From assembly GCA_027486275.1 (NCBI GenBank), contig JAIXPM010000222.1, forward strand, positions 1-10,935: 10,935 nt of DNA, in the 5' to 3' direction. The notes beneath the pieces are model-generated. The model was given only the letters and a program-made list of their open reading frames with translations. It searched no databases and had not been told where the DNA came from. This DNA comes from Sphingomonadales bacterium (lineage in GTDB: Bacteria; Pseudomonadota; Alphaproteobacteria; Sphingomonadales; Sphingomonadaceae). Shown in pieces: positions 1 to 10,935 of this stretch. Within the stretch, counting starts at the first letter, position 1. Each line of letters begins with the position of its first letter. The translations under genes and the position numbers were made by a program.

Positions 1-701
1 AACTCGATCGCCACATCCTTGGCACCCGGCACCTGCAGGATGGACGGGGTGGGCACGCCATCGAAATAGATTTCCGAATAGGCCAGATCGGAAAGCACCC
101 AGATATTATGCTTCTTCGCAAACGCCACGACGCGCTCATAAAAGGCCAGATCGGCGACCTCGGCAGTTGGGTTGCTGGGGTAACCCATCACCAGCACGCT
201 CGGCCGCGGCACGGTGAACCGCACCGCCCGCTCCAGCGCCTCGAAATATTTCTCATCCGGCGTTGTTGGCACGCTGCGGATGGTCGCGCCGGCAATGATG
301 AAGCCGAACGTGTGGATCGGATAAGACGGGTTGGGCGCCAGCACCACGTCACCGGGCGCGGTGATCGCCTGCGCCAGATTGGCCAAGCCCTCCTTGGAAC
401 CCAGCGTGACAACCACCTCGGTTTCGGGATCAACATCCACGCCGAACCGCCGGTCATAATAGGCGCTCTGCGCGCGGCGCAGCCCGGCGATGCCCTTGGA
501 TGCGCTGTATCCATGCGCATCCGGCTTGGCGGCCACTTCGGCCAGCTTGGCGATCACGTGCGGCGGCGGCGGCAGATCGGGATTGCCCATGCCCAGATCG
601 ATGATGTCGTCACCCCGGGCCCGCGCTGCGGCCCGCATGGCGTTCACTTCCGCGATCACATAGGGCGGCAAACGTTTGATGCGGTAGAAATCGTCCTGCA
701 T
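1..701 (-). CDS. alaC: AlaC-type PLP-dependent aminotransferase (5' part, truncated by window edge)
   Basis: Class I/II fold-type I aminotransferase, probably moving an amino group between alanine or glutamate and 2-oxo acids in the cytoplasm; often annotated as LL-diaminopimelate or aspartate aminotransferase. The N-terminus MQDDFYRIKRLPPYV, then DIIDLGMGNPD, HGYSASKGI, GSKEGLANL, PNPSYPIHT, GYPSNPTAE and SDLAYSEIYFDG, follows E. coli AlaC nearly block by block. About 233 codons are visible of a family length near 400; the PLP lysine and the C-terminal domain lie beyond base 1. The ATG at 701-699 has an AAGGA ribosome binding site seven bases upstream (713-709). The gene is divergent from phaC and is preceded by an intrinsic terminator and a short Ala-rich frame (separate entries), suggesting regulated readthrough. 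Family assignment is firm; the exact substrate is inferred from similarity. Confidence 0.93.
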   Translation of the reverse strand, partial: MQDDFYRIKRLPPYVIAEVNAMRAAARARGDDIIDLGMGNPDLPPPPHVIAKLAEVAAKPDAHGYSASKGIAGLRRAQSAYYDRRFGVDVDPETEVVVTLGSKEGLANLAQAITAPGDVVLAPNPSYPIHTFGFIIAGATIRSVPTTPDEKYFEALERAVRFTVPRPSVLVMGYPSNPTAEVADLAFYERVVAFAKKHNIWVLSDLAYSEIYFDGVPTPSILQVPGAKDVAIE

Positions 702-727
702 GGCTGCGTCCTTAGGCAACAGATGGA

Positions 728-769
728 CAAAAGAAAAGCGGCGGAGGAACCATTTTGTTCCGCCGCCGC
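728..769 (-). terminator. Intrinsic terminator in the alaC 5' leader (candidate attenuator)
   Basis: On the minus strand a 13-bp GC-rich stem with one mismatch (arms 769-757 and 750-738) closes a 6-base loop and is followed directly by TTTTCTTTTGT (737-727). This is a canonical Rho-independent terminator reading toward alaC, ending about 26 bases before its ATG. The plus strand has no T-tract after the stem, so it does not serve phaC. No recognisable gene lies upstream on the minus strand for it to terminate, only the short frame 895-800. A terminator placed inside a leader is the hallmark of attenuation; it could instead end a small RNA. Confidence 0.7.
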
Positions 770-799
770 CGGTTGGAGAGTTCGAATGTTGCGAAACTC

Positions 800-895
800 T
801 CAGCTCGGCGGCGCTCCTGCGGCCATAACGGCGGATGCGGCGGCTGCTGATGCAGCGCCGGCAATTGCCGCAATGATGGTGGCACGATTGATCAC
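800..895 (-). CDS. Candidate alanine-rich leader peptide upstream of alaC (31 aa)
   Basis: Short frame GTG (895-893) to TGA (802-800), 31 residues, 14 of them alanine, including four in a row at residues 17-20 (GCA GCC GCC GCA). It starts MINRATIIAAIAG and ends GAPPS. A possible AAGG lies 11 bases upstream of the GTG, so initiation looks weak. The stop codon is about 30 bases from the terminator stem. Alternative pairings are visible: GGCGCT inside the peptide (minus strand 859-854) is complementary to AGCGCC near its end (815-810), and CGCCGCCG (813-806) is complementary to the 5' arm of the terminator (CGGCGGCG within 771-757). This matches the 1:2, 2:3, 3:4 logic of amino-acid attenuators. 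GC-rich DNA yields Ala codons and such complementarities easily, so translation and function are inference. It could also be a small hydrophobic protein or a chance frame. Confidence 0.4.
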   Translation of the reverse strand: MINRATIIAAIAGAASAAAASAVMAAGAPPS

Positions 896-941
896 AGGTG
901 GAACGCCCTTGCAGCCGGCACACGCCGTGCCAGCAAATTCG

Positions 942-969
942 GCGTTAGCTGAAATGGCCGGCTTGGCAA
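942..969 (-). promoter_or_regulatory. Candidate promoter for the alaC leader
   Basis: Minus strand TTGCCA (969-964), a 16-base spacer, then TAACGC (947-942). Transcription would begin about 40 bases before the GTG of the Ala-rich frame, giving a leader that contains frame, terminator and alaC start in order. The -35 match is fair and the -10 weak, as is common in this group; motif-only support. Confidence 0.25.
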
Positions 970-970
970 A

Positions 971-987
971 GCCCCGTCACAAGGGGC
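971..987 (+). promoter_or_regulatory. Small hairpin in the phaC 5' region
   Basis: GCCCC (971-975) and GGGGC (983-987) form a perfect 5-bp stem with a 7-base loop, ending 13 bases before the AGGAG ribosome binding site of phaC (1001-1005). It could lie in the phaC leader or be an operator half-pair; no regulator can be assigned. No convincing plus-strand promoter was found in the rest of the 313-base gap 702-1014, which otherwise holds the minus-strand alaC leader elements. Confidence 0.2.
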
Positions 988-1014
988 AAGGTGCGATATC
1001 AGGAGATCACCCCA

Positions 1015-2796
1015 ATGACTGCCACGCCCGTACCGTCCGAATCCCCCACCGATCTTGGCGCCCGCCAGGTGCAAGCGCAGGAAAACTTTCAGAAATTCAC
1101 CGATCTGATGGGCAAGGGCCAGCAGATGATGATGGAATTCTGGACGAAGGAACATGCCGCAACGCCGATGGTCACCGATCCGATGGGCTTCATGTCCGGC
1201 TGGCAAAAGGCGATCACCGCCCTGATGTCCGATCCGGCCCGCCTGATGGAACAGCAGCAGAAGTACATGGCCGATGCCATGATGCTGTGGAAAAACTTCA
1301 TCAGCCCCGATGCCGAAAAGCCAACGATCAAAGACAAACGCTTTGCGAACGAAGCCTGGTCGCAAAACCCCGCCTTCGATTTCCTGCGCCAATCCTATCT
1401 GCTCACCGCCAGCCACTTCATGGAAGCCGCCCACCAGCTTGACGGGCTGGAACCCGCCGAAAAGGCCAAGGCGCAATTCCTGATCAAGCAGTTCGTGGAC
1501 GCGATGAGCCCGTCCAACTTCGCGCTCACCAACCCCGAAGTGCTGAAAACCACGGCCGAAACCGGCGGCGCCAATCTGCTCAGGGGCCTCGAACATCTGC
1601 TCGGCGATCTGCAAACCGGCCGCATGAAGATGACCGACGAAAACGCCTTCGAAGTCGGCCGCAACGTTGCCATCACGCCGGGCAAGGTCGTCTTCCAGAA
1701 CCGCCTGCTGCAGCTCATCCAGTACACGCCCACCACCGAAACCGTGTACGAAGTGCCGCTGGTGATCTACCCGCCGTGGATCAACAAATTCTACATCCTC
1801 GATCTCACCGCCGAAAAAAGCTTCATCCGCTGGGCCGTCGAACAGGGCATCACCGTGTTCGTTGCCAGCTGGAAAAATGCCGATGAAAGCATCGCCGATG
1901 CCACCATCGATACCTATGTCGAAGAAGGCATATTGCAGGGCGTCCGCGTGGCGCGCGAAATCTGCAACACCGAAGGCGCCCACGTCATCGGCTATTGCGT
2001 CGCCGGCACCACACTTGCCGCCACCATGGCCGTGCTCGAATCCCGCAACCAGGCCAGCCAGATCACCTCTGCCACCTTCTTCACCGCCCAGGTGGACTTT
2101 GCCGATGCCGGTGAACTGAAATTCTTCGTCGATGATCCCAGCGTCGAAACGCTGGACAAGCTGACGGAAGACAAACACGTGCTCGATGGCCGCTTCATGG
2201 CCACCACCTTCAACCTGCTGCGATCGAACGACCTGATCTGGAACTATGTCGTCAACAACTACATGCTGGGGAAAGACTATTTCCCCTTCGATCTGCTCTA
2301 TTGGAATTCAGATGCCACCAACGTGCCGGCCAGATGGCACCAGCAGTATATCAAGGATCTGTATCGCGAAAACCTGATGGTCCAACCCGGCGCGCTCACC
2401 GTGTGCGGCGTGCCCATCGATCTGAAAACCGTGAAAACCCCCACCTTCATCCAGGCCGGCAAGGAAGATCATATCGCGCCGGCAAAATCGGCCTTCAAAC
2501 TCACCAAGGCCTTCAGCGGCGAAACCCGCTTCGTGCTGGCCGGCAGCGGGCACATCGCCGGCGTCGTCAACCCACCCTCTGCCATGAAATACCAGCACTG
2601 GATCGGCGACCCAACCGTCGCCACCCTCGACGATTTCATCGCCAGCGGCACGGAAACCAAAGGCAGCTGGTGGCCCCACTGGCTCACCTGGCTCACCCCG
2701 CGTTCGGGCAAACAGGTGAAACCACGCGTGCCGGGGGAGGGGCCGTACACGGCGATCGAGGACGCGCCGGGGGCGTATGTGAAAGAGCGGATTTAA
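1015..2796 (+). CDS. phaC: Class I poly(3-hydroxyalkanoate) synthase
   Basis: Polymerises 3-hydroxyacyl-CoA into polyhydroxyalkanoate storage granules, releasing CoA. The 593-aa product has the size of class I synthases. It shows the PhaC N-terminal domain with the landmarks NRLLQLIQYTP and PLVIYPPWINKFYILDL, then an alpha/beta hydrolase core. The catalytic triad is intact: Cys328 in the lipase-like box GYCVAG, Asp485 in AGKEDHIAP and His513 in GSGHIAGVVNPP. I chose the ATG at 1015 because AGGAG sits 9 bases upstream; an in-frame GTG at 991 would place that site inside the gene. The N-terminal 100 residues are Met/Gln-rich and helical in appearance, as expected for the variable region. No phasin, depolymerase, phaA or phaB lies next to it, so the monomer pathway is encoded elsewhere. 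The downstream hairpin repeat may also serve as its terminator. Confidence 0.97.
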   Translation: MTATPVPSESPTDLGARQVQAQENFQKFTDLMGKGQQMMMEFWTKEHAATPMVTDPMGFMSGWQKAITALMSDPARLMEQQQKYMADAMMLWKNFISPDAEKPTIKDKRFANEAWSQNPAFDFLRQSYLLTASHFMEAAHQLDGLEPAEKAKAQFLIKQFVDAMSPSNFALTNPEVLKTTAETGGANLLRGLEHLLGDLQTGRMKMTDENAFEVGRNVAITPGKVVFQNRLLQLIQYTPTTETVYEVPLVIYPPWINKFYILDLTAEKSFIRWAVEQGITVFVASWKNADESIADATIDTYVEEGILQGVRVAREICNTEGAHVIGYCVAGTTLAATMAVLESRNQASQITSATFFTAQVDFADAGELKFFVDDPSVETLDKLTEDKHVLDGRFMATTFNLLRSNDLIWNYVVNNYMLGKDYFPFDLLYWNSDATNVPARWHQQYIKDLYRENLMVQPGALTVCGVPIDLKTVKTPTFIQAGKEDHIAPAKSAFKLTKAFSGETRFVLAGSGHIAGVVNPPSAMKYQHWIGDPTVATLDDFIASGTETKGSWWPHWLTWLTPRSGKQVKPRVPGEGPYTAIEDAPGAYVKERI

Positions 2797-2812
2797 GGGG
2801 GGTTAAGTTAGG

Positions 2813-2849
2813 GGGCCTCCGGCGGGCAGGGACGCAGTCCCTGCACCCA
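2813..2849 (+). repeat. GC-rich hairpin repeat, left copy (inverted relative to 5381-5417)
   Basis: A 37-base element beginning GGGCCTCCGGCGGGCAGGG and ending CCCTGCACCCA. Its core is a perfect 7-bp stem GCAGGGA/TCCCTGC (2826-2832, 2838-2844) with loop CGCAG. It matches the reverse complement of 5381-5417 at 32 of 37 positions, and both copies continue into a T-rich then G-rich stretch (here TTTGTTTTGGGG). It lies 16 bases after the phaC stop, so hairpin plus T-rich tail may terminate phaC. It resembles REP-type extragenic palindromes; genome copy number is unknown from this window. Confidence 0.75.
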
Positions 2850-2946
2850 TTTGTTTTGGGGCAGCCCCTTCTGATCAAGTCCTCCCGTCATCTCGGACTT
2901 CATCTGGTGTCTAGGTTTTCTGCGTTGGAAAAATGATTGTTGGTTG

Positions 2947-2975
2947 TTGCAGATGGACCGGGATATGCCATAGAA
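2947..2975 (+). promoter_or_regulatory. Candidate promoter of the methyltransferase gene (possibly leaderless)
   Basis: TTGCAG (2947-2952), 17-base spacer, ATAGAA (2970-2975), then only seven bases to the ATG at 2983. No Shine-Dalgarno sequence precedes that ATG, so a leaderless mRNA fits both facts. Leaderless expression is known for several restriction-modification controller genes. No C-protein box-like symmetric repeats were seen. Motif-only evidence. Confidence 0.3.
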
Positions 2976-2982
2976 CCTTTTT

Positions 2983-4173
2983 ATGATGTCACTTGCAAAC
3001 CGCTCGACCAATGCTCGAACCGCCAAGCAGGATGAATTTTATACACAGTTCAGCGACATTCAAATGGAAGTAGAATCTTATCTCGAGCTTGACGCTGACG
3101 CTTTTCAAAATAAAGTAGTATATTGCAATTGCGATGACCCTTTTGAAAGCAATTTTTTCAAATATTTTGCCGCAAACTTCAATAGGCTCGGTCTAAAGAA
3201 GCTTATCTCCACAAGTTACGATGGCTCTCCTATTGCCGGGCAAGGTGCCCTTTTTCCAGAGTATGATGATGGCAAAGCCAATCGGCGTAAGCCGATGGCC
3301 CTGGCTGTTGTTCTCGATCACGTGAAGGATGAGGATGGGGATGGCGCTGTCAACGTTACGGACGTTGAGATCTTTCTTAAACATAACAAGGCAGCGCGAG
3401 TCTCACTCAAAGGCAACGAGCAGTATGCCGGTGGAGACTTCCGTAGCCCAGAGTGTGTCGAATTCTTAAAAGAGGCCGACATCGTTGTCACGAACCCGCC
3501 CTTCTCGCTATTTCGCGAGTACGTTGCCCAACTCGTGGCCCACGAAAAAAGGTTCTTGATTATCGGGAATATGCAAGCCGCGACCTACAAGGAGATTTTC
3601 CCACTTATCAAGGCTGACAAGCTCTGGATGGGAGTTACCATTCACAGCGGGGATCGCGAATTCCGCGTTCCCGACCACTATCCGCTGGAAGCTGCTGGAT
3701 GGCGCGTGGACGAAGCGGGTGCCAAGTACATCCGCGTAAAGGGCGTGCGGTGGTGGACAAATTTGGATCACGGCCGCCGACATCAACCGCTGCCACTGAT
3801 GGGCATGGCGGACAATCTTAGATTTAGTAAACATAATGAAATCAAGGGCAAGACTGCTTACGACAGATATGAGAATTATGATGCTATAGAAATTCCGTTT
3901 ACGGATTCGATTCCGAATGATTATGATGGCGTGATGGGAGTGCCGATTTCGTTCTTGGACAAATATTGCCCGGAACAATTTGAAATTGTCGGCACGCTTG
4001 AATCCAGCGATCCTAACAATCCATTTCGGACAAGGTGGTATTCGTCTCAAGATCAAAAAGACGCATATTTCCGCCGGTTTGGAAAGGCCGGGACTATTCC
4101 ACTAAATATGTCTGGCGTCATTAATGATGTGAAGGTTTACAAGCGCATATTAATTCGTCAACGTAAAAGGTAA
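2983..4173 (+). CDS. EcoRI-family DNA adenine-N6 methyltransferase
   Basis: Transfers a methyl group from S-adenosylmethionine to adenine in DNA. The 396-aa product follows M.EcoRI in order: [30 protein letters not shown] and LGLKKLI near the N-terminus; GGDFRSPE; the catalytic motif IV in [12 protein letters not shown] (NPPF at residues 171-174); [16 protein letters not shown]; then [36 protein letters not shown] and a C-terminal YKRILIR. It is about 70 residues longer than M.EcoRI (326 aa), mainly through a segment around residues 75-160 and one near 320-380. The start is ATG 2983 or the adjacent ATG 2986; neither has a clear ribosome binding site. It lies 22 bases upstream of a DUF262-HNH nuclease gene and is probably co-transcribed with it. 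Family membership is firm; whether it still recognises GAATTC is unknown, because only catalytic and scaffold blocks can be matched by eye. Confidence 0.93.
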
Positions 4174-4195
4174 TAGCCTTAGCGAGATTCGCGCC

Positions 4196-5362
4196 ATGAA
4201 AACCAGTCTCAACACCGAGCTGAGCATCTCCGATGTCTGCGAAGGATTCATTTACAATCAGCTTGAGGGAAAGGGTTTGTTTGGACTTTCTGGCAAACTC
4301 ACGATTCAACCTGAATATCAGAGAAATTATATCTATGCTGAGAGCGGCGGTAAACGAGAGCAAGACGTCATCCACTCATTGCTTATGGGATATCCCCTTG
4401 GACTAATTTATTTCAACAAGGTCGCTCATGATAAGTTTGAAGTTTTGGATGGTCAGCAACGTATCACAAGCATAGGTCGCTTTATTACAAATAAGTTTTC
4501 AATCACGGAAAATGGAAATCCCAGGAACTTCGATAGTTTGGCCGCGGACCAGAAGCAGATAATTCTTGATTCTAAGCTATTGATATACGAATGTGAAGGA
4601 TCTGAAACCGAGATAAAACAGTGGTTTCAAACCATCAATATTGTTGGCGTTGAATTGAACGATCAAGAACTTTTAAATGCCATTTACTCTGGAAAATTTG
4701 TCACGAAGGCGAAAGAGGTGTTTAGCAACAGTCAGAACGCTAACATCCAAAAATGGAGCGCTTACGTCAAAGGAAATGCCAACCGGCAGGATTTTTTGGA
4801 ACGAGCGCTCCAGTGGGTCAGTAAGGGCGATGTCGGTTCTTACATGAGTGCGCGTCGCAATGATGCCGACGTTTCCGAACTGAAGAACTATTTCAACAGC
4901 GTGATTGACTGGGTCTCAAACGTATTTGTAGATGTTTTGCCGGAAATGAAAGGTATTGAATGGGGTCGCTTGTACGAAGAGCACCACCACAAGAGCTATG
5001 ACTCCAAGCTGGTTTCGGAGGCGGTGCGCGCTCTCGCCGCTGATGGCGAGGTCACAAATCGAAAGGGCATTTTTGAGTATGTTTTGGGTGGGTCTGTGGA
5101 CACCAAACTACTCAACGTTCGGGTGTTTGATGACAAGGTGAAAAGGGCGACGTACGCAAAGCAGACGCAAAGTGCCGAAACCAAAGGGGAGTCCAATTGC
5201 CCTCTCTGTGCAATCGGCCACGGTGCAAACAACGCTAGGCGGTATGCTCTGAGTGAGATGGATGCGGATCATGTTTCTGCGTGGAGCAAGGCGGGGGACA
5301 GCTCGGCCAACAACTGCCAAATGCTTTGCGTCACCCACAATCGCGCAAAGGGCAATCGCTAG
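4196..5362 (+). CDS. DUF262 (GmrS-like) protein with C-terminal HNH endonuclease domain
   Basis: A 388-aa predicted DNA nuclease. Residues about 10-120 carry the DUF262 signature of ParB/sulfiredoxin-fold nucleotidases: [11 protein letters not shown] (37-47), [14 protein letters not shown] (60-73) and [12 protein letters not shown] (83-93, with DGQQR at 85-89). In GmrSD, SspE and BrxU this domain couples nucleotide hydrolysis to sensing of DNA modification. The last 55 residues form a zinc-type HNH domain: CPLC (335-338), DADHV with His359, NN at 372-373, then C378-x2-H381 followed by N382 and K385. This is a different HNH class from the DUF1524 module of GmrD. The middle is helical, without a recognised motif. 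The start ATG 4196 follows the methyltransferase stop by 22 bases; the upstream SD is weak (GCGAG). The TAG stop abuts the right-hand repeat region. Predicted role is the restriction or effector half of a two-gene defence cassette; target and trigger are inferred, not seen. Confidence 0.88.
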
Positions 5363-5380
5363 CCCCCCTAAAAACGAAAG

Positions 5381-5417
5381 TGGGTGCAGGGGTTCAGCCC
5401 CTGCCCGCCGGAGGCCC
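5381..5417 (-). repeat. GC-rich hairpin repeat, right copy (inverted relative to 2813-2849)
   Basis: Read on the minus strand this is the same 37-base element as at 2813-2849. The core stem GCAGGGG/CCCCTGC (5386-5392 with 5398-5404) has one base pair changed from A:T in the left copy to G:C here, so pairing is preserved while the loop differs. It begins 18 bases after the nuclease stop. A second perfect inverted repeat, GGAGGC/GCCTCC (5410-5415, 5422-5427), and a GCCGC/GCGGC hairpin (5428-5440) follow, filling the gap before the DUF393 gene with palindromes. Confidence 0.75.
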
Positions 5418-5485
5418 TGCTGCCTCCGCCGCCCTGCGGCGAGGTGGGGTCTGGCGCCGTTTCGGCCTCCCACTATCAGGGGCGC

Positions 5486-5872
5486 ATGATCGAAAATCCC
5501 GAAACGTCGGTACTCTACAACGCCCAGTGTCCGGTGTGTCAGGTCGAGGTTAACCATTATGCGCGTTATGTGGGCGAGGCGGGTTTGCCGATCCGGTTTG
5601 ATGATCTGAACACGGATGCACTGCACCGGTGGGGGATTGATGCCGATACGGCCGCGCGCAGCCTGTATGTGCAGCGGGGTGGGGTGATTGTTTCCGGTGT
5701 GCCGGCGTTTTTGCTGCTGTGGTCGCAGATGCCGCGGTATCGATTGCTGGCGTGGATCGTGGGGTTGCCGGGGATCAGGCAGATTGCCGGCGCGGCCTAT
5801 GATCATGTGTTTGCCCCGGTGTTGTACCGGCGGCACCGGCGCCGGCAGGCCGGGAACCAGCGTATAGGGTGA
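5486..5872 (+). CDS. DCC/DUF393 family thiol-disulfide oxidoreductase-like protein
   Basis: A 128-aa protein of the DUF393 (YuxK/DCC1) family, named for its conserved N-terminal Asp-x-Cys-x-x-Cys-type motif. Here residues 8-21 read SVLYNAQCPVCQVE with the CPVC pair at 15-18, and the family's usual aspartate before the cysteines is replaced (YNAQC). The central SLYVQRGGVIVSGVPAF and the C-terminal helix with a basic RRHRRRQ tail fit the family. Members are predicted redox proteins, mostly without a proven substrate. I chose ATG 5486 because AGGGG precedes it and because upstream in-frame translation would run through the hairpin repeat. It is the first gene after the accessory island and precedes tspO by 83 bases, possibly in one transcript. 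Confidence 0.85.
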   Translation: MIENPETSVLYNAQCPVCQVEVNHYARYVGEAGLPIRFDDLNTDALHRWGIDADTAARSLYVQRGGVIVSGVPAFLLLWSQMPRYRLLAWIVGLPGIRQIAGAAYDHVFAPVLYRRHRRRQAGNQRIG

Positions 5873-5955
5873 AAGCCGCAAGCCGGTGCGATGGGGCCGC
5901 CCTATCTTGCCGGGCGTCGATGCTGCATGGAGGCGGTTGAAAGTGAGGCACCGCC

Positions 5956-6426
5956 TTGTCCGAGTTCAACCTGCCGCTTGCGAGTGCGATTATCTGGATG
6001 GTGGGCCTGTGCCTGGTGGGCGGGCTGATGACGCCGCGTGCCGATTGGTATGCCCGGCTGCGCAAGCCCGCATGGCAGCCGCCCGGTTGGGCGTTCGGGC
6101 CGGGGTGGACGATCATCCTTGGTTTGGCGGCGTGGGCGGCGGTGCGCGCTTGGGATGCCGGTGATGCGGCGCAGCAGCGGGACGTGCTGATCCTGTTCGG
6201 CGTGAACGCCGTGTTCCACCTGGCCTGGAGCCCGCTGTTCTTCAAGCTGCAGCGGCCTGATTGGGCGCTGATCGAAGTGCCGTTCCTCTGGGCCTCGGTG
6301 CTCGCGATGATGATCGGGTTGTGGCCCATCGACAGCCAAGCGGCGCTGCTCATCCTGCCCTATCTGGCATGGGTGGGATTTGCAGCGTCGCTCAACTGGA
6401 AGGTTGTTGATCTCAACCCGCGTTGA
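5956..6426 (+). CDS. tspO: TspO/MBR family tryptophan-rich membrane protein
   Basis: A small integral membrane protein of the translocator-protein family that binds tetrapyrroles such as protoporphyrin; in Rhodobacter it tunes pigment gene expression in response to oxygen. The 156-aa product has about five hydrophobic segments and 13 tryptophans. The family blocks are present: RKPAWQPPGWAFGPGWTI (36-53), VNAVFHLAWSPLFF (83-96) and the C-terminal LPYLAWVGFAASLNW (134-148). The start is taken as TTG 5956, with GAGG eight bases upstream; the next ATG would remove most of the first transmembrane helix. It converges with the monooxygenase gene, leaving only 15 bases between stops and no room for an obvious terminator. 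Ligand and role here are inferred from the family. Confidence 0.93.
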   Translation: MSEFNLPLASAIIWMVGLCLVGGLMTPRADWYARLRKPAWQPPGWAFGPGWTIILGLAAWAAVRAWDAGDAAQQRDVLILFGVNAVFHLAWSPLFFKLQRPDWALIEVPFLWASVLAMMIGLWPIDSQAALLILPYLAWVGFAASLNWKVVDLNPR

Positions 6427-6441
6427 CGGGAAGGCCCTTGG

Positions 6442-7917
<1,476 letters not shown>

Positions 7918-7930
7918 GGTACTGGTCTCC

Positions 7931-7948
7931 CTTTACGCGAACGTAAAG
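7931..7948 (-). promoter_or_regulatory. Palindromic operator candidate upstream of ethA
   Basis: A perfect 7-bp inverted repeat, CTTTACG/CGTAAAG, around a 4-base centre (minus strand TTCG). It lies 14 bases before the GTG start and directly adjoins the ribosome binding site. It overlaps a candidate -10 hexamer. Size and symmetry suit a dimeric TetR-type repressor; the same sequence in RNA would form a small hairpin next to the ribosome binding site. Which regulator binds is unknown. Confidence 0.5.
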
Positions 7949-7968
7949 CGAGGGCGGGCTGGCGGCAA
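7941..7968 (-). promoter_or_regulatory. Candidate ethA promoter
   Basis: Minus strand TTGCCG (7968-7963), 16-base spacer, TTACGT (7946-7941). The -10 lies inside the palindrome at 7931-7948, the arrangement expected for repression by promoter occlusion. Motif-only support. Confidence 0.3.
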
Positions 7969-8021
7969 TGGGGCAAAACAGCGAGGGCGGCCACGAACCG
8001 GCACAGGCCGGCAGCGGCCGG

Positions 8022-8582
8022 CTACCGGCGGGGCGCGCCCGGCAGCGGCGGCAACTGCCGCGGGCGATCCTTGCGCGGCATCTGCGCCTGATAGGCGACT
8101 AGGCAATGATCATTGCAATAAGGGAAGCCGGCGTTGGACGGGCGGCCGCAGAAATGGAAATCCGCGTCTCCCGGATGGCCGATCGGCCACTTGCACACCT
8201 TTTCGTTTAATTCGAGCAGGCTGGTGCGGGTGTGCTTGCCGCCCTTGCTGACACCCGTGGCCGGCCTGGCGACAGGGCGCGCGGCCGGTGCTTCCATCGG
8301 CGTGATCGCTGGTGCACTGGCGGCCACCGGAGCCGGGGCGGGCGGTGGTGCAGCGGCGGCCGGCGGTGGCGGCGGCGCGCCGGCCGCAGCGCGGGCAGGG
8401 GCCGGCGTGGCGTCGGTGGCCTTCACCGGTGAAGGCCGGCTTTCCAGGCCAAGCCGGTGCGCCTTGCCGATCACGGCATTGCGGGTCACGCCTTCGCCCA
8501 GCATTTCGGCAATCTGGGTCGCGGTCATGCCGCCCTCCCAGCCCTGCTTGAGCTTTGCGATGCGTTCGTCGGTCCAGGCCAT
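8022..8582 (-). CDS. gcrA: GcrA cell-cycle transcriptional regulator
   Basis: An alphaproteobacterial regulator that binds sigma-70 RNA polymerase and promotes transcription from promoters, many of them carrying CcrM-methylated GANTC sites. The 186-aa product has the diagnostic N-terminus MAWTDERIAKLKQGWEGGM with the helix-turn-helix continuing through GVTRNAVIGKAHRLGL (31-46). A long Ala/Pro-rich linker follows (about 50-110). The conserved C-terminal sigma-interacting part, residues 121-165, reads SLLELNEKVCKWPIGHPGD, with cysteines at 130, 145, 156 and 160. I chose ATG 8582-8580 because the family starts exactly there; an open frame upstream to 8714 has no family similarity. No GANTC site was found in the 71 bases between gcrA and the divergent permease gene. 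The linker is longer and more proline-rich than in Caulobacter GcrA. Confidence 0.96.
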   Translation of the reverse strand: MAWTDERIAKLKQGWEGGMTATQIAEMLGEGVTRNAVIGKAHRLGLESRPSPVKATDATPAPARAAAGAPPPPPAAAAPPPAPAPVAASAPAITPMEAPAARPVARPATGVSKGGKHTRTSLLELNEKVCKWPIGHPGDADFHFCGRPSNAGFPYCNDHCLVAYQAQMPRKDRPRQLPPLPGAPRR

Positions 8583-8617
8583 GGTGCGTCTTGCCCTCAG
8601 ATAATCAGCGTCACCCC

Positions 8618-8646
8618 TTGGCAGGGCGCGCGTGCAATCGTAAGCC
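8618..8646 (+). promoter_or_regulatory. Candidate promoter of the ABC permease gene (possibly leaderless)
   Basis: TTGGCA (8618-8623), 17-base spacer, TAAGCC (8641-8646), ending seven bases before ATG 8654. The start codon has no Shine-Dalgarno sequence, so transcription may begin at or next to the ATG. The -35 is good and the -10 weak. Confidence 0.3.
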
Positions 8647-8653
8647 CCTAGCG

Positions 8654-9484
8654 ATGATGAACGCTGATAACAAGCTGCCAGCACACCCGGAGCCCGGGGT
8701 GCCCGTGATTGCACGGCTCAACACGGAAGGGTTGAAGACCCTTTATCTGAAAGAGGTACGGCGCTTTTTCAAGGTGCAACTGCAAACCATCTGGGCGCCG
8801 GCGGTCACCACGCTGATGTTTCTGGTGATCTTTGCCGTGGCACTGGGCCGCGGCGATATCCTGATCCTTGGGGTGCCCTATGCCGATTTCCTCGGCCCTG
8901 GCCTGATCGTGATGGGCATGATCCAGAACAGCTTTGCCAACACCTCGTCTTCCATCCTGGTGGCCAAGGTGCAGGGCTCGATCATCGATGTGCTGATGCC
9001 GCCGCTGTCCGCAGGAGAATTGATGCTGGCCTGGGTGGGCGGTGCGGTCACGCGGGCCTGGTTGGTGGGGCTGGCAGTGTGGACGGTGATGGCGGTGGCA
9101 CCGGGCGTGAACGTGCCGGTGAAAGATCCGCTGCTGGTGCTCTATTTCGGCACCATGGGCGCGATCCTGCTGGCACTGCTCGGCATCCTGACGGGTGTGT
9201 GGGCCGATAAGTTCGATCATGCCGCGGCGGCCACAAACTTTGTGATCCAGCCGCTCACGCTGCTGTCTGGTACTTTCTATGCCGTGGAACGGCTTGGACC
9301 CACGGTGGCCGGAATTGCCCATGCCAATCCCTTCTTCCATGTGATCGATGGTTTCCGGGCCGGCTTCATCGGTGTGTCGGATGGGCCGCTGGGTCAGTCG
9401 GCACTGCTGCTGGCGCTGGTCAACGTCGCGCTGTGGTTCCTGTGCTATCGCGTGGTGAAATCGGGCTGGAAACTGCGCGCCTGA
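8654..9484 (+). CDS. ABC-2 type transporter permease, YadH-like
   Basis: The membrane subunit of an ABC exporter. The 276-aa product resembles E. coli YadH throughout: an N-terminal LYLKEVRRFFKVQLQTIWAP, YADFLGPGLIVMGMIQNSFAN, FVIQPLTLLSGTFYAVERL and NPFFHVIDGFRAGFIGVSD, with about six hydrophobic segments. The start is ATG 8654 or 8657; neither has a clear ribosome binding site, and a candidate promoter suggests leaderless translation. No ATPase gene adjoins it, although YadH-type permeases need one, so the partner must be encoded elsewhere. It is divergent from gcrA. Substrate is unknown. Confidence 0.92.
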   Translation: MMNADNKLPAHPEPGVPVIARLNTEGLKTLYLKEVRRFFKVQLQTIWAPAVTTLMFLVIFAVALGRGDILILGVPYADFLGPGLIVMGMIQNSFANTSSSILVAKVQGSIIDVLMPPLSAGELMLAWVGGAVTRAWLVGLAVWTVMAVAPGVNVPVKDPLLVLYFGTMGAILLALLGILTGVWADKFDHAAAATNFVIQPLTLLSGTFYAVERLGPTVAGIAHANPFFHVIDGFRAGFIGVSDGPLGQSALLLALVNVALWFLCYRVVKSGWKLRA

Positions 9485-9510
9485 TCCGGTGCTGTGCGGC
9501 AACGACGTAT

Positions 9511-9539
9511 TTGCACTGAACGCCAAAGCCGCATAACGC
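9511..9539 (+). promoter_or_regulatory. Candidate promoter of the RND efflux operon
   Basis: TTGCAC (9511-9516), 17-base spacer, TAACGC (9534-9539), about 66 bases before the adaptor ATG. The gap also holds a short GGGG-AAA-CCCC hairpin (near 9563) with no T-tract, so it is not a convincing terminator for the permease gene. Motif-only support. Confidence 0.28.
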
Positions 9540-9605
9540 ACGGCATGCTCAAATTCGCGCGGGGGAAACCCCTGGGCAGCGCGTAAGGGTTTGGACTGTA
9601 AAACG

Positions 9606-10823
9606 ATGATCATTGATGCCCCCCTCTTCCGCCGTGGCGGCGTGCTTGCGCTTGCAGTGCTGCTTGCCGCCTGTTCCAACGGCGAGGGCGATAATGCCGG
9701 CGGCAAATCCGGCCGTGGCAAGCGGCCGCCGCAACTTGTGTCTGCCCAAGTTGCCGCCATGGAAGATTTTGCGCCCACATTGCTGGCGCTCGGCACCGTC
9801 ACCCCCAGCCAGAGCGTGGCCGTGCGGCCCCGCGGCGATGGTGAGATCATGTCGATTGCCTTCAAAGAGGGCGATAATGTGCGCGCCGGACAGCTGCTGT
9901 TCCGGATCGATTCGCGCCAGGCCCGGGCTGCGGTGGCCCAGGCAGAAGGCGAGCTGAAGGGCGCCATCGCGGCCGAGCGTCGCGCCACGCTGGATTATGA
10001 GCGGGCCGAGAAGCTGGTAGAGAAGGGCTTCGTATCGGCCGCCGCGCGGGATCTGGCCCGGGCCAATGCCTGGTCTGCCCGCAGCCAGATCGAAACCAAC
10101 CGCGCACTGCTGCAATCAGCGCAGGTGCAATTGTCTTTCCTGACTGTCACCGCGCCCATTTCCGGACGCACCGGTGAACTTGGTTTCCGTCGCGGTGCCA
10201 CCGTGCGCCAGGGCGATGCCACGCCGCTGGTGACGATCAACCAGATTTCTCCCATCCACGTGCGTTTCCTTGTGCCGGCGGCCAACGTGCAACAGGCGCG
10301 CGCCGTGCAGGCCAGTGGCGGCGGCACTGTGCTGGCACGGGATCGGCAGAGCGGTGAGGTGCTGGCCACCGGCCGCCTCGTGTTCCTTGATAATAATATC
10401 GATCCGGGCAACGGCGGCGTCGCGGCTCGCGCGGAGTTCCGCAACGAAGGCGACGTGCTGTGGCCGGGCGCCATCATCGATGTTGAATTCCCGCTGGAAC
10501 GCGCCACGCCGCATATCACACTGCCCGAAGGCGCGGTGCAGACCGGCCGCGACGCCCCCTTCGTGTGGGCGGTTTCCGGTACTGCCAAGGCGCCTGGCGC
10601 GAAAGGGTCCGGCGGCAAGGTGCAGATGCGCAATGTGGATATCGCTGGGCGCCTGCGCGGCAAGGTTTATCTTGCCGGAGGCGTGAAGCCTGGCGAACAG
10701 GTCGTGGTCGATGCGCTTGCCCGCCTGAAAGAGGGAGACACTGTGCGCCTGAAGGGGCCCGACAAGCCCCAGTTGGCAGCCAGCCCTGATCGTCCAGCCG
10801 CGCCGGCCGGGAGCGCTGGCTGA
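9606..10823 (+). CDS. RND efflux pump periplasmic adaptor (membrane fusion lipoprotein)
   Basis: Links an inner-membrane RND pump to an outer-membrane channel. The 405-aa product starts with a lipoprotein signal peptide: RR at 9-10, a hydrophobic stretch, and the lipobox LLAAC with the lipidated Cys at 23. A first lipoyl half-motif is at about 69-104 (SVAVRPRGDGEIMSIAFKEG, then AGQLLFRIDS), a helical hairpin at about 105-178 rich in Ala, Glu and Arg, and the second lipoyl half at about 180-212 (LTVTAPISGRTGELGFRRG). The beta-barrel region is IHVRFLVPA onward. The tail is Pro/Ala-rich. ATG 9606 is preferred; an in-frame TTG at 9591 would add five residues and has AAGGG too close to it. The stop overlaps the pump start (TGATG), indicating translational coupling. 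It resembles the MdtA/AcrA branch; substrate cannot be read from the sequence. Confidence 0.94.
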   Translation: MIIDAPLFRRGGVLALAVLLAACSNGEGDNAGGKSGRGKRPPQLVSAQVAAMEDFAPTLLALGTVTPSQSVAVRPRGDGEIMSIAFKEGDNVRAGQLLFRIDSRQARAAVAQAEGELKGAIAAERRATLDYERAEKLVEKGFVSAAARDLARANAWSARSQIETNRALLQSAQVQLSFLTVTAPISGRTGELGFRRGATVRQGDATPLVTINQISPIHVRFLVPAANVQQARAVQASGGGTVLARDRQSGEVLATGRLVFLDNNIDPGNGGVAARAEFRNEGDVLWPGAIIDVEFPLERATPHITLPEGAVQTGRDAPFVWAVSGTAKAPGAKGSGGKVQMRNVDIAGRLRGKVYLAGGVKPGEQVVVDALARLKEGDTVRLKGPDKPQLAASPDRPAAPAGSAG

Positions 10824-10935
10824 TGGGTTTTGTCCGCCTCTGTGTCGAGCGGCCAATCGCCACCATCCTTCTGACTCTCGCGGTCGTGTTCGGCGGCCTG
10901 TTCGGCTATCGCCAACTGGCGGTGTCGGCCCTGCC
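10823..10935 (+). CDS. RND efflux pump inner-membrane transporter (N-terminal fragment, truncated by window edge)
   Basis: The first 37 codons of an AcrB/MdtB/MdtC-type proton-driven multidrug pump. The start MGFVRLCVERPIATILLTLA, then a hydrophobic helix and YRQLAVSALP, is the standard N-terminal cytoplasmic helix, first transmembrane segment and the conserved leucine-proline entry to the periplasmic domain. The ATG at 10823 shares its A with the TGA stop of the adaptor gene, so the two are co-transcribed and probably translationally coupled. Over 95% of the gene lies outside the window. Confidence 0.93.
   Translation, partial: MGFVRLCVERPIATILLTLAVVFGGLFGYRQLAVSAL

Follow-up and report, generated by a model that had tools for sequence, protein, structure and literature searches.

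Which partner reads the DNA when an EcoRI-family methylase stands beside a nuclease that is not EcoRI? The question is raised by two adjacent genes in a 10,935-nucleotide stretch from a Sphingomonadales bacterium (GenBank assembly GCA_027486275.1, contig JAIXPM010000222.1, positions 1 to 10,935 of the forward strand), which we call the window. In the textbook EcoRI system, nuclease and methylase recognise one and the same site, each independently of the other. Here, a methylase of that family is partnered by a nuclease in whose sequence almost no trace of the site can be seen. In our comparison of sequences the two genes travel together and both active sites are retained; two blocks of the methylase recombine with little linkage either to one another or to the nuclease, and the N-terminal and middle regions of the methylase are co-inherited with it. 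We propose a two-gene restriction-modification (R-M) system in which the methylase would be the sequence-recognition component for both methylation and cleavage, and we put the probability of this reading at about 0.6.

A conserved pair of methylase and nuclease

The open reading frames (ORFs) of the window include two on the + strand, separated by 22 bases. They and their parts are the following.

2983..4173, + strand: EcoRI-family N6-adenine DNA methyltransferase, 396 residues (Pfam, PADLOC, alignment, AlphaFold model)
3493..3504, + strand: catalytic motif NPPF, methylase residues 171-174, conserved in the alignment
3613..3768, + strand: block TRDa, methylase residues 211-262, a presumed target-recognition block
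3769..3987, + strand: region mid, methylase residues 263-335, inherited with the nuclease
3988..4170, + strand: C-terminal block, methylase residues 336-396, a presumed second target-recognition block
4196..5362, + strand: DUF262 (GmrSD_N, ParB/Srx-like)-HNH nuclease, 388 residues (Pfam, PADLOC)
4301..4687, + strand: DUF262 domain, nuclease residues 36-164, with QR at 42-43 and DGQQR at 85-89, by analogy a likely nucleotide pocket
5198..5359, + strand: Cys4 zinc-type HNH nuclease domain, with C335, C338, H359, N373, C374, C378 and N382

The methylase belongs to its family by a full-length match to Pfam EcoRI_methylase (PF13651, E 8.9e-129, residues 10-393 of 396) together with the NPPF motif, and is 46% identical to true M.EcoRI (alignment A1). 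The PADLOC model MTase_II (PDLC03297) spans residues 9-341, and the AlphaFold model (pLDDT 86, pTM 0.84) has a Rossmann methylase domain. The N, P and P of the motif occur in 144 of 144 aligned sequences and the F in 143 of 144.

The nuclease matches GmrSD_N/DUF262 (PF03235) at residues 36-164 (E 3.1e-20) and HNH (PF01844) at residues 353-388 (E 2e-4, 21.8 bits for a cut-off of 21.4), and its translation contains YQRNYIY, DGQQR, CPLC, DADHV and CVTHN. Up to E 1, Pfam reports the GmrSD_N and HNH families only, with no PF02963, DUF1524 or helicase. The PADLOC model REase_II (PDLC03418) covers residues 9-387 (E 8.1e-87) and matches a short-type relative at E 2.6e-144. Among 134 aligned nucleases, all from ORFs of more than 340 residues, Q42, R43, DGQQR 85-89, C335, C338, H359, N373, C378 and N382 are invariant. 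In both proteins such conservation of residues is far beyond chance. The sequence-only reading had described a methylase with intact NPPF, followed after 22 bases by a 388-residue DUF262-HNH protein; ORFs, PF13651, PF03235, PF01844 and motifs all agree with it.

A protein search with the nuclease returns at least 8000 relatives, a figure that is not a count of methylase-paired loci. For the nuclease, a PDB sequence search gives no informative relative, and a profile search gives weak matches only, to EcoKMcrA (E 0.032) and BrxU (E 0.15); homologues of vaccinia F1L (E 0.025-0.033 in the same search) were taken as chance matches. The nuclease model has pLDDT 83 and pTM 0.57. Foldseek finds nothing in the PDB at E 0.001 or better with either model, and NCBIfam gives no match above a cut-off for the pair.

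The pairing holds far beyond the window. In a set with one genome per species, an EcoRI-family methylase, whole or cut by a contig end, is found at 47 of 56 nuclease loci. Of the other nine loci, five have a nuclease whose start is no more than 134 bases from a contig end; L053 and L054 contain nucleases that are broken or partial, and the last two matches span 34 and 20 residues. In a virus collection (L068-L148, 81 loci including some mutual duplicates) the methylase is present at 76 loci, being fragmentary in L083 and L124 and downstream in L121; four of the five exceptions begin within 426 bases of a contig end and the fifth, L071, is without a nuclease ORF. Among 393 Bacteroidales genomes, 45 have nuclease matches, 52 in all, and 48 of these have a methylase on the same strand less than 3 kb upstream, the other four being fragments or lying at a contig end. 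Seen from the methylase, 49 of 65 Bacteroidales matches are paired with a nuclease. These counts rule out chance pairing. The genes are also tightly spaced: at 46 genome loci with both ORFs, 22 show an exact 4-base overlap and 39 a gap of at most 21 bases. Members from many phyla were found, some chromosomal and some plasmid-borne, others in a Flavobacterium phage or on large contigs of the virus collection. The sequence-only reading had proposed a compact two-gene system and named a genome search for the pairing as its check; nearly every nuclease gene with upstream room has a methylase, and the idea that the pairing is absent elsewhere is refuted.

Such pairing bears on one alternative, a Type IV-like defence against modified phage DNA for which the methylase is an independent neighbour. 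In its favour, GmrSD and BrxU both contain DUF262 and target modified cytosines (in the part of PMC12707154 available to us). The close association with one methylase family, the overlapping genes and the co-inheritance speak against it, as does an HNH domain of the PF01844 type with no DUF1524 reported. We consider it the least likely of the alternatives.

Some loci hold further genes. Small ORFs between the two genes resemble, by eye, REP-associated or IS200-type transposases in L028, L034 and L024, and L049 has an MNT/HEPN-like pair there. On plasmid pRGI00069 (L065, 719-1525) an unannotated 268-residue gene stands immediately upstream of the methylase-nuclease pair. EcoRI-family methylases are matched in 98 plasmid records, 30 of them from Lactococcus or Lactiplantibacillus, and the mycobacteriophage records Marchy, Hami1 and Norz each contain such a match.

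Two methylase blocks nearly decoupled from the nuclease

If the nuclease found its site alone, the DNA-reading parts of the methylase should be held to it. We compared regional methylase identity with nuclease identity across 107 of the 119 loci with both genes, excluding short or edge-cut methylases and exact duplicates. Between these 107 non-identical pairs the Mantel r is 0.69 for methylase residues 1-80 and 0.77 for residues 263-335, but 0.075 for TRDa and 0.10 for the C-terminal block; residues 149-205, strongly conserved throughout, give 0.25. Low identity as the sole cause of this decoupling is ruled out by residues 92-132, a poorly conserved stretch whose correlation with the nuclease is nonetheless 0.50-0.59. 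From the other side, every window of the nuclease stays at or below r 0.12 with TRDa and at or below 0.15 with the C-terminal block. The two blocks are themselves almost unlinked (r 0.044, p 0.038).

Grouping at 50% identity divides 128 methylases, duplicates and second copies retained, into 23 TRDa types and 61 C-terminal types, seen in 93 combinations; the largest TRDa type, to which the methylase of the window belongs, has 23 members. Mapped on the nuclease tree, TRDa types require a minimum of 66 changes, compared with 79.0 after shuffling (sd 2.4, lowest 71), and C-terminal types need 33, compared with 43.3 (lowest 40), with types of fewer than three members omitted so that 113 and 57 of the 128 rows were used. 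An insertion in the middle region needs 4 changes, compared with 38.2. This insertion, near methylase residues 272-292, is present in 86 of 93 methylases with long nucleases, in none of 40 with short ones and in none of 7 with R.EcoRI. The middle region (263-335) is, from these comparisons, a candidate interface with the nuclease. What is new here, at the level of sequence comparison, is thus a pair of exchangeable methylase blocks that evolve almost independently of the nuclease.

An SspE-like system could leave a similar picture. Its nuclease, without sequence specificity, would sense through DUF262 the mark of the methylase, the absence of this mark or a foreign modification, and sensing methylation in any context likewise predicts no co-variation of nuclease and blocks. 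N6-methyladenine is nevertheless produced by many other methylases and makes a poor unique mark. The correlation of 0.77 with the middle region suits a protein partner, though co-inheritance alone could yield it, and Pfam reports no other reader domain. We regard this explanation as unlikely: modification sensing of the GmrSD or SspE kind is less likely than recognition supplied by the methylase.

M.EcoRI, the sole methylase of known target that we found to anchor the block types, is of TRDa type 1 and C-terminal type 1. Its TRDa type is shared by seven DUF262-paired methylases (L017, L059, L067, L089, L099, L125, L126) and its C-terminal type by one (L044); none shares both.

Natural swaps show the exchange directly. 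In L100 and L101 the nucleases are identical at 389 of 390 residues, while successive methylase regions are 100, 100, 92, 31, 95 and 19% identical: both blocks differ and the breaks in the DNA are sharp. In L207 and L209, from two different genomes, the nucleases agree at 380 of 386 residues; the methylases are identical to the end of TRDa, 94% identical in the middle region and 40% in the C-terminal block. Five non-identical pairs have nucleases more than 95% identical, and blocks have changed in three of them (L100/L101, L066/L101, L207/L209), which make two independent cases. In six further locus pairs both genes are identical. The converse also occurs, L068 and L143 sharing TRDa at 83% with nucleases just 42% identical. 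Two tandem methylases with different blocks precede one nuclease in L086 and L099, and L115 has one methylase on each side of its nuclease, differing throughout.

Methylases of the same family paired with true R.EcoRI serve as a control; that such pairs exist bears out the view of the sequence-only reading that a DUF262-HNH protein here takes the place of R.EcoRI. Seven of 12 loci were used: L062, L158 and L159 were excluded as duplicates, and L153 and L157 since no methylase was found in the stretches examined. At nuclease identities of 0.75-0.85, R.EcoRI pairs (6 comparisons) have mean methylase identities of 0.78 in the N-terminal region, 0.81 in the core, 0.87 in TRDa, 0.80 in the middle region and 0.82 in the C-terminal block. 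The corresponding values for DUF262-HNH pairs (510 comparisons) are 0.75, 0.76, 0.42, 0.76 and 0.31. Next to R.EcoRI, both blocks are conserved as much as the remaining methylase or more, in a control of seven loci whose comparisons are mutually dependent and with few positions in the short C-terminal block of M.EcoRI. Such conservation would be expected of DNA-reading blocks constrained by a nuclease that recognises the site on its own. Two R.EcoRI-like nucleases on Acinetobacter and Paracoccus plasmids (L155, L156) stand beside genes whose sole annotation is DNA methyltransferase or DNA adenine methylase; perhaps partners are exchanged on the R.EcoRI side too. The record of Helicobacter phage Pt11509_1 names an EcoRI nuclease adjoining its methylase.

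Some loci hold an alternative C-terminal block in inverted form. On the opposite strand beside the methylase, such a block is found at 7 of 170 loci with a methylase match (L066, L100, L101, L103, L121, L130, L206). Apart from two weak cases given below, the matches range from 8e-15 to 3e-41, save for the second copy of L101 (9e-14) and that of L130 (2e-14). A segment of about 380 bp is inverted between colinear flanks in L100 compared with L206 and with L103, and the block type active in one locus is silent in the other; at 72-81% DNA identity these are related loci, not one strain. Among eight loci searched, inverted repeats of 18-22 nucleotides occur at the joint in L101, L103 and L206, with none at L105, L106, L212, L213 or L223. 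Downstream of the nuclease, L066, L101 and L103 encode a tyrosine recombinase (PF00589), as L100 probably does too, judging from its 98.7% DNA match to L101. In L130, on a 356-kb virus-collection contig, the silent block resembles that of M.EcoRI and the methylase gene looks frameshifted. A 283-residue gene lies after the silent cassettes and before the nuclease in L066, L100 and L101, and the L101 copy has a BRO-N domain (PF02498). In the window, the 22-base gap is too small for a cassette.

These cassettes could be taken to indicate a system that is first of all an epigenetic switch, changing the methylome as a phasevarion does, with a nuclease that is weak or conditional. The inverted C-terminal copies and the recombinase gene near some of them fit this. 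Yet the catalytic residues of the nuclease are identical in 134 of 134 sequences, so cleavage appears to be under selection, and 163 of 170 loci have no inverted copy. We judge a switch in this sense very unlikely.

The classical Type II pair can be weighed on the same evidence. In it the DUF262-HNH enzyme reads its site alone and the methylase blocks vary for some other reason, for example to escape phage inhibitors. The near-whole-length PADLOC match is to a model named 'Type II restriction enzyme', the two genes are separate as in Type II, and other members of this methylase family have R.EcoRI as their partner. All the same, the blocks that are conserved beside R.EcoRI vary widely beside DUF262-HNH, the nucleases of L100/L101 and of L207/L209 remain near-identical despite block changes, and inverted alternative blocks stand beside a constant nuclease. 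After a swap or a flip, a self-reading nuclease would face its old sites unprotected; the simplest view is that the nuclease takes its recognition from the methylase. A classical pair seems to us improbable, slightly more so than the SspE-like system.

Proposed mechanism and its standing

We now propose how the pair may work. Methylase blocks 211-262 and 336-396 would read the DNA sequence, and the methylase would mark its site on host DNA. The DUF262-HNH protein would bind the constant part of the methylase, a nucleotide in the DUF262 pocket would gate the nuclease, and the HNH domain would cut at unmodified sites encountered by the complex. If a block were exchanged or inverted, methylation and cleavage could then acquire the new target at once, as happens in Type I and Type III systems, and the cell would survive. 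Nucleotide gating is suggested by analogy with GmrSD and BrxU: the accessible portions of the sources describe the joining of a ParB/Srx-like DUF262 domain to a nuclease domain in GmrSD-type proteins (PMC4619093), and the action of DUF262-containing enzymes on modified cytosines (PMC12707154).

The part of PMC3983042 that we could consult describes how target-recognition domains (TRDs) move from gene to gene in Type I and Type III systems, and that of PMC4081073 presents differing reading modes of nuclease and methylase as general for Type II pairs.

Several observations weigh against this mechanism. Some pairs with nucleases more than 95% identical, L066/L100 and L090/L091, have unchanged blocks. 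A residual link of blocks and nuclease is detectable (TRDa, p 0.013; C-terminal block, 0 of 2000 Mantel permutations), roughly tenfold weaker than the link of the N-terminal and middle regions, and fewer block changes are needed on the nuclease tree than in any of 150 shuffles, which recent shared ancestry would explain. Only a minority of loci (7 of 170) have inverted copies, and the window has none; the match in L121 (1e-5) and one of the L101 pair (2e-6, interrupted by a stop) are weak, and the single neighbouring ORF scanned in L206 encodes a glycosyl hydrolase, not a recombinase. For 16 of the 65 Bacteroidales methylase matches there is no nuclease within 3 kb, and about half of these are near full length. 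Many loci come from metagenome assemblies. A PDB sequence search with the methylase yields no informative relative and no solved structure of one, and the fold comparison covers mainly residues 11-262, so that DNA reading by the blocks is a deduction. Nucleotide dependence of the nuclease is plausible by analogy, its basis being the ParB/Srx-like fold and the invariant DGQQR only. Finally, PADLOC assigns both proteins to Type II.

Near full-length Bacteroidales methylases with no DUF262-HNH match within 3 kb are found in G546, G637, G571, G478, G314, G459, G415 and G599; these may be solitary or have other partners. Five loci (L002, L083, L130, L213, L216) combine a stop-free nuclease with a broken or truncated methylase, which would suit dependence on the methylase; they were not counted, because loci were collected by nuclease and assembly error is possible.

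Altogether, the two-gene system, its conserved pairing and the replacement of the nuclease proposed by the sequence-only reading stand. Its sensor attacking differently modified phage DNA is not supported as a first choice, as nothing points to it. The exchangeable blocks, which it had not seen, suggest methylase-directed cleavage instead.

The family is not new in itself: through PADLOC it is in effect already counted among Type II restriction enzymes. In the parts of the open-licence PMC literature that we could search, we found no paper on the DUF262-HNH/EcoRI-methylase pair or on an invertible EcoRI-family methylase; what we consulted of PMC7785942, PMC4978471 and PMC7230728 had no bearing on the question. 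It is an even bet that the pair is a distinct kind of R-M system, in which two combinatorial blocks, one of them invertible in some hosts, guide a nucleotide-gated DUF262-HNH nuclease, with Type III-like logic, Type II-looking parts and no helicase. If the proposed mechanism is right, a large family filed as Type II would be methylase-guided and its specificities might be predictable from two short blocks. Block exchange would offer a route to restriction systems with new targets, DUF262 would gain a role beyond sensing modified DNA, and specificity switching by inversion would extend to a system whose components are not those of Type I.

Genomic setting and comparison with known systems

The pair occupies an island of the window bounded by a 40-nucleotide inverted repeat.

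2813..2852, + strand: inverted repeat, left arm; bounds the island and is a dispersed repeat of the host lineage
5378..5417, - strand: inverted repeat, right arm; bounds the island

In 500-base windows, the fraction of guanine plus cytosine (GC) is 0.40-0.54 within the gene-pair block and about 0.57-0.72 outside. Reading of the ORF list reveals no further convincing gene between the arms; the low-GC block without another gene, as first described from the letters alone, is thus seen in GC windows and ORF list alike.

The nearest genome, G001, has flanks that match those of the window at 97% and 96% identity, and it has the same two repeats. Between them lies an 843-residue protein instead of the methylase-nuclease pair (L168, G001:C144:21300-26100; gene 1028-3559, - strand). 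It has an NPPY motif, by eye, and matches a Type II methylase model weakly, with no Pfam match up to E 0.01. As this unrelated methylase-like gene sits between the same two repeats, the site is perhaps a hot spot for restriction-type cargo. G001 contains 57 copies of the repeat core pattern at no more than 3 mismatches, and the reversed-pattern control gives 0. Several copies form facing pairs about 100-200 bases apart, which we take to be REPIN-like, and some pairs are kilobases apart. In the set of 299 genomes around G001, both genes are complete in one genome only (G173).

The pair shares with the EcoRI system the methylase family (PF13651, 46% identity), the two adjacent genes and plasmid-borne members. 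It is not an EcoRI system in that its partner is a DUF262-HNH protein with no PF02963 match; the order is methylase then nuclease, whereas the R.EcoRI loci that we read have the nuclease first; and blocks that are conserved in R.EcoRI pairs vary widely here.

GmrSD, BrxU and SspE (DUF262-DUF1524) likewise fuse a ParB/Srx-like DUF262 domain with DGQQR to a nuclease domain. In the window, however, the C-terminal domain is a Cys4 HNH of the PF01844/McrA type and not DUF1524, the protein has 388 residues compared with 560-771 for the solved BrxU and SspE chains, and in nearly all loci the DUF262-HNH gene lies beside an EcoRI-family methylase.

Type I systems with invertible hsdS resemble the pair in their two blocks that assort almost independently and, in some loci, in cassette inversion (as described in the sections of PMC4948785 and PMC7394358 available to us). 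Here, in contrast, the blocks lie within the methylase, and no separate specificity or helicase gene is seen in the pair.

In Type III systems Res relies on Mod for recognition, as HsdR relies on HsdS in Type I. The logic that we propose, a methylase with exchangeable blocks and a constant nuclease partner, would be that of Mod and Res, but with two separated blocks, no Pfam helicase match in the partner, and a 388-residue DUF262-HNH protein in the place of Res.

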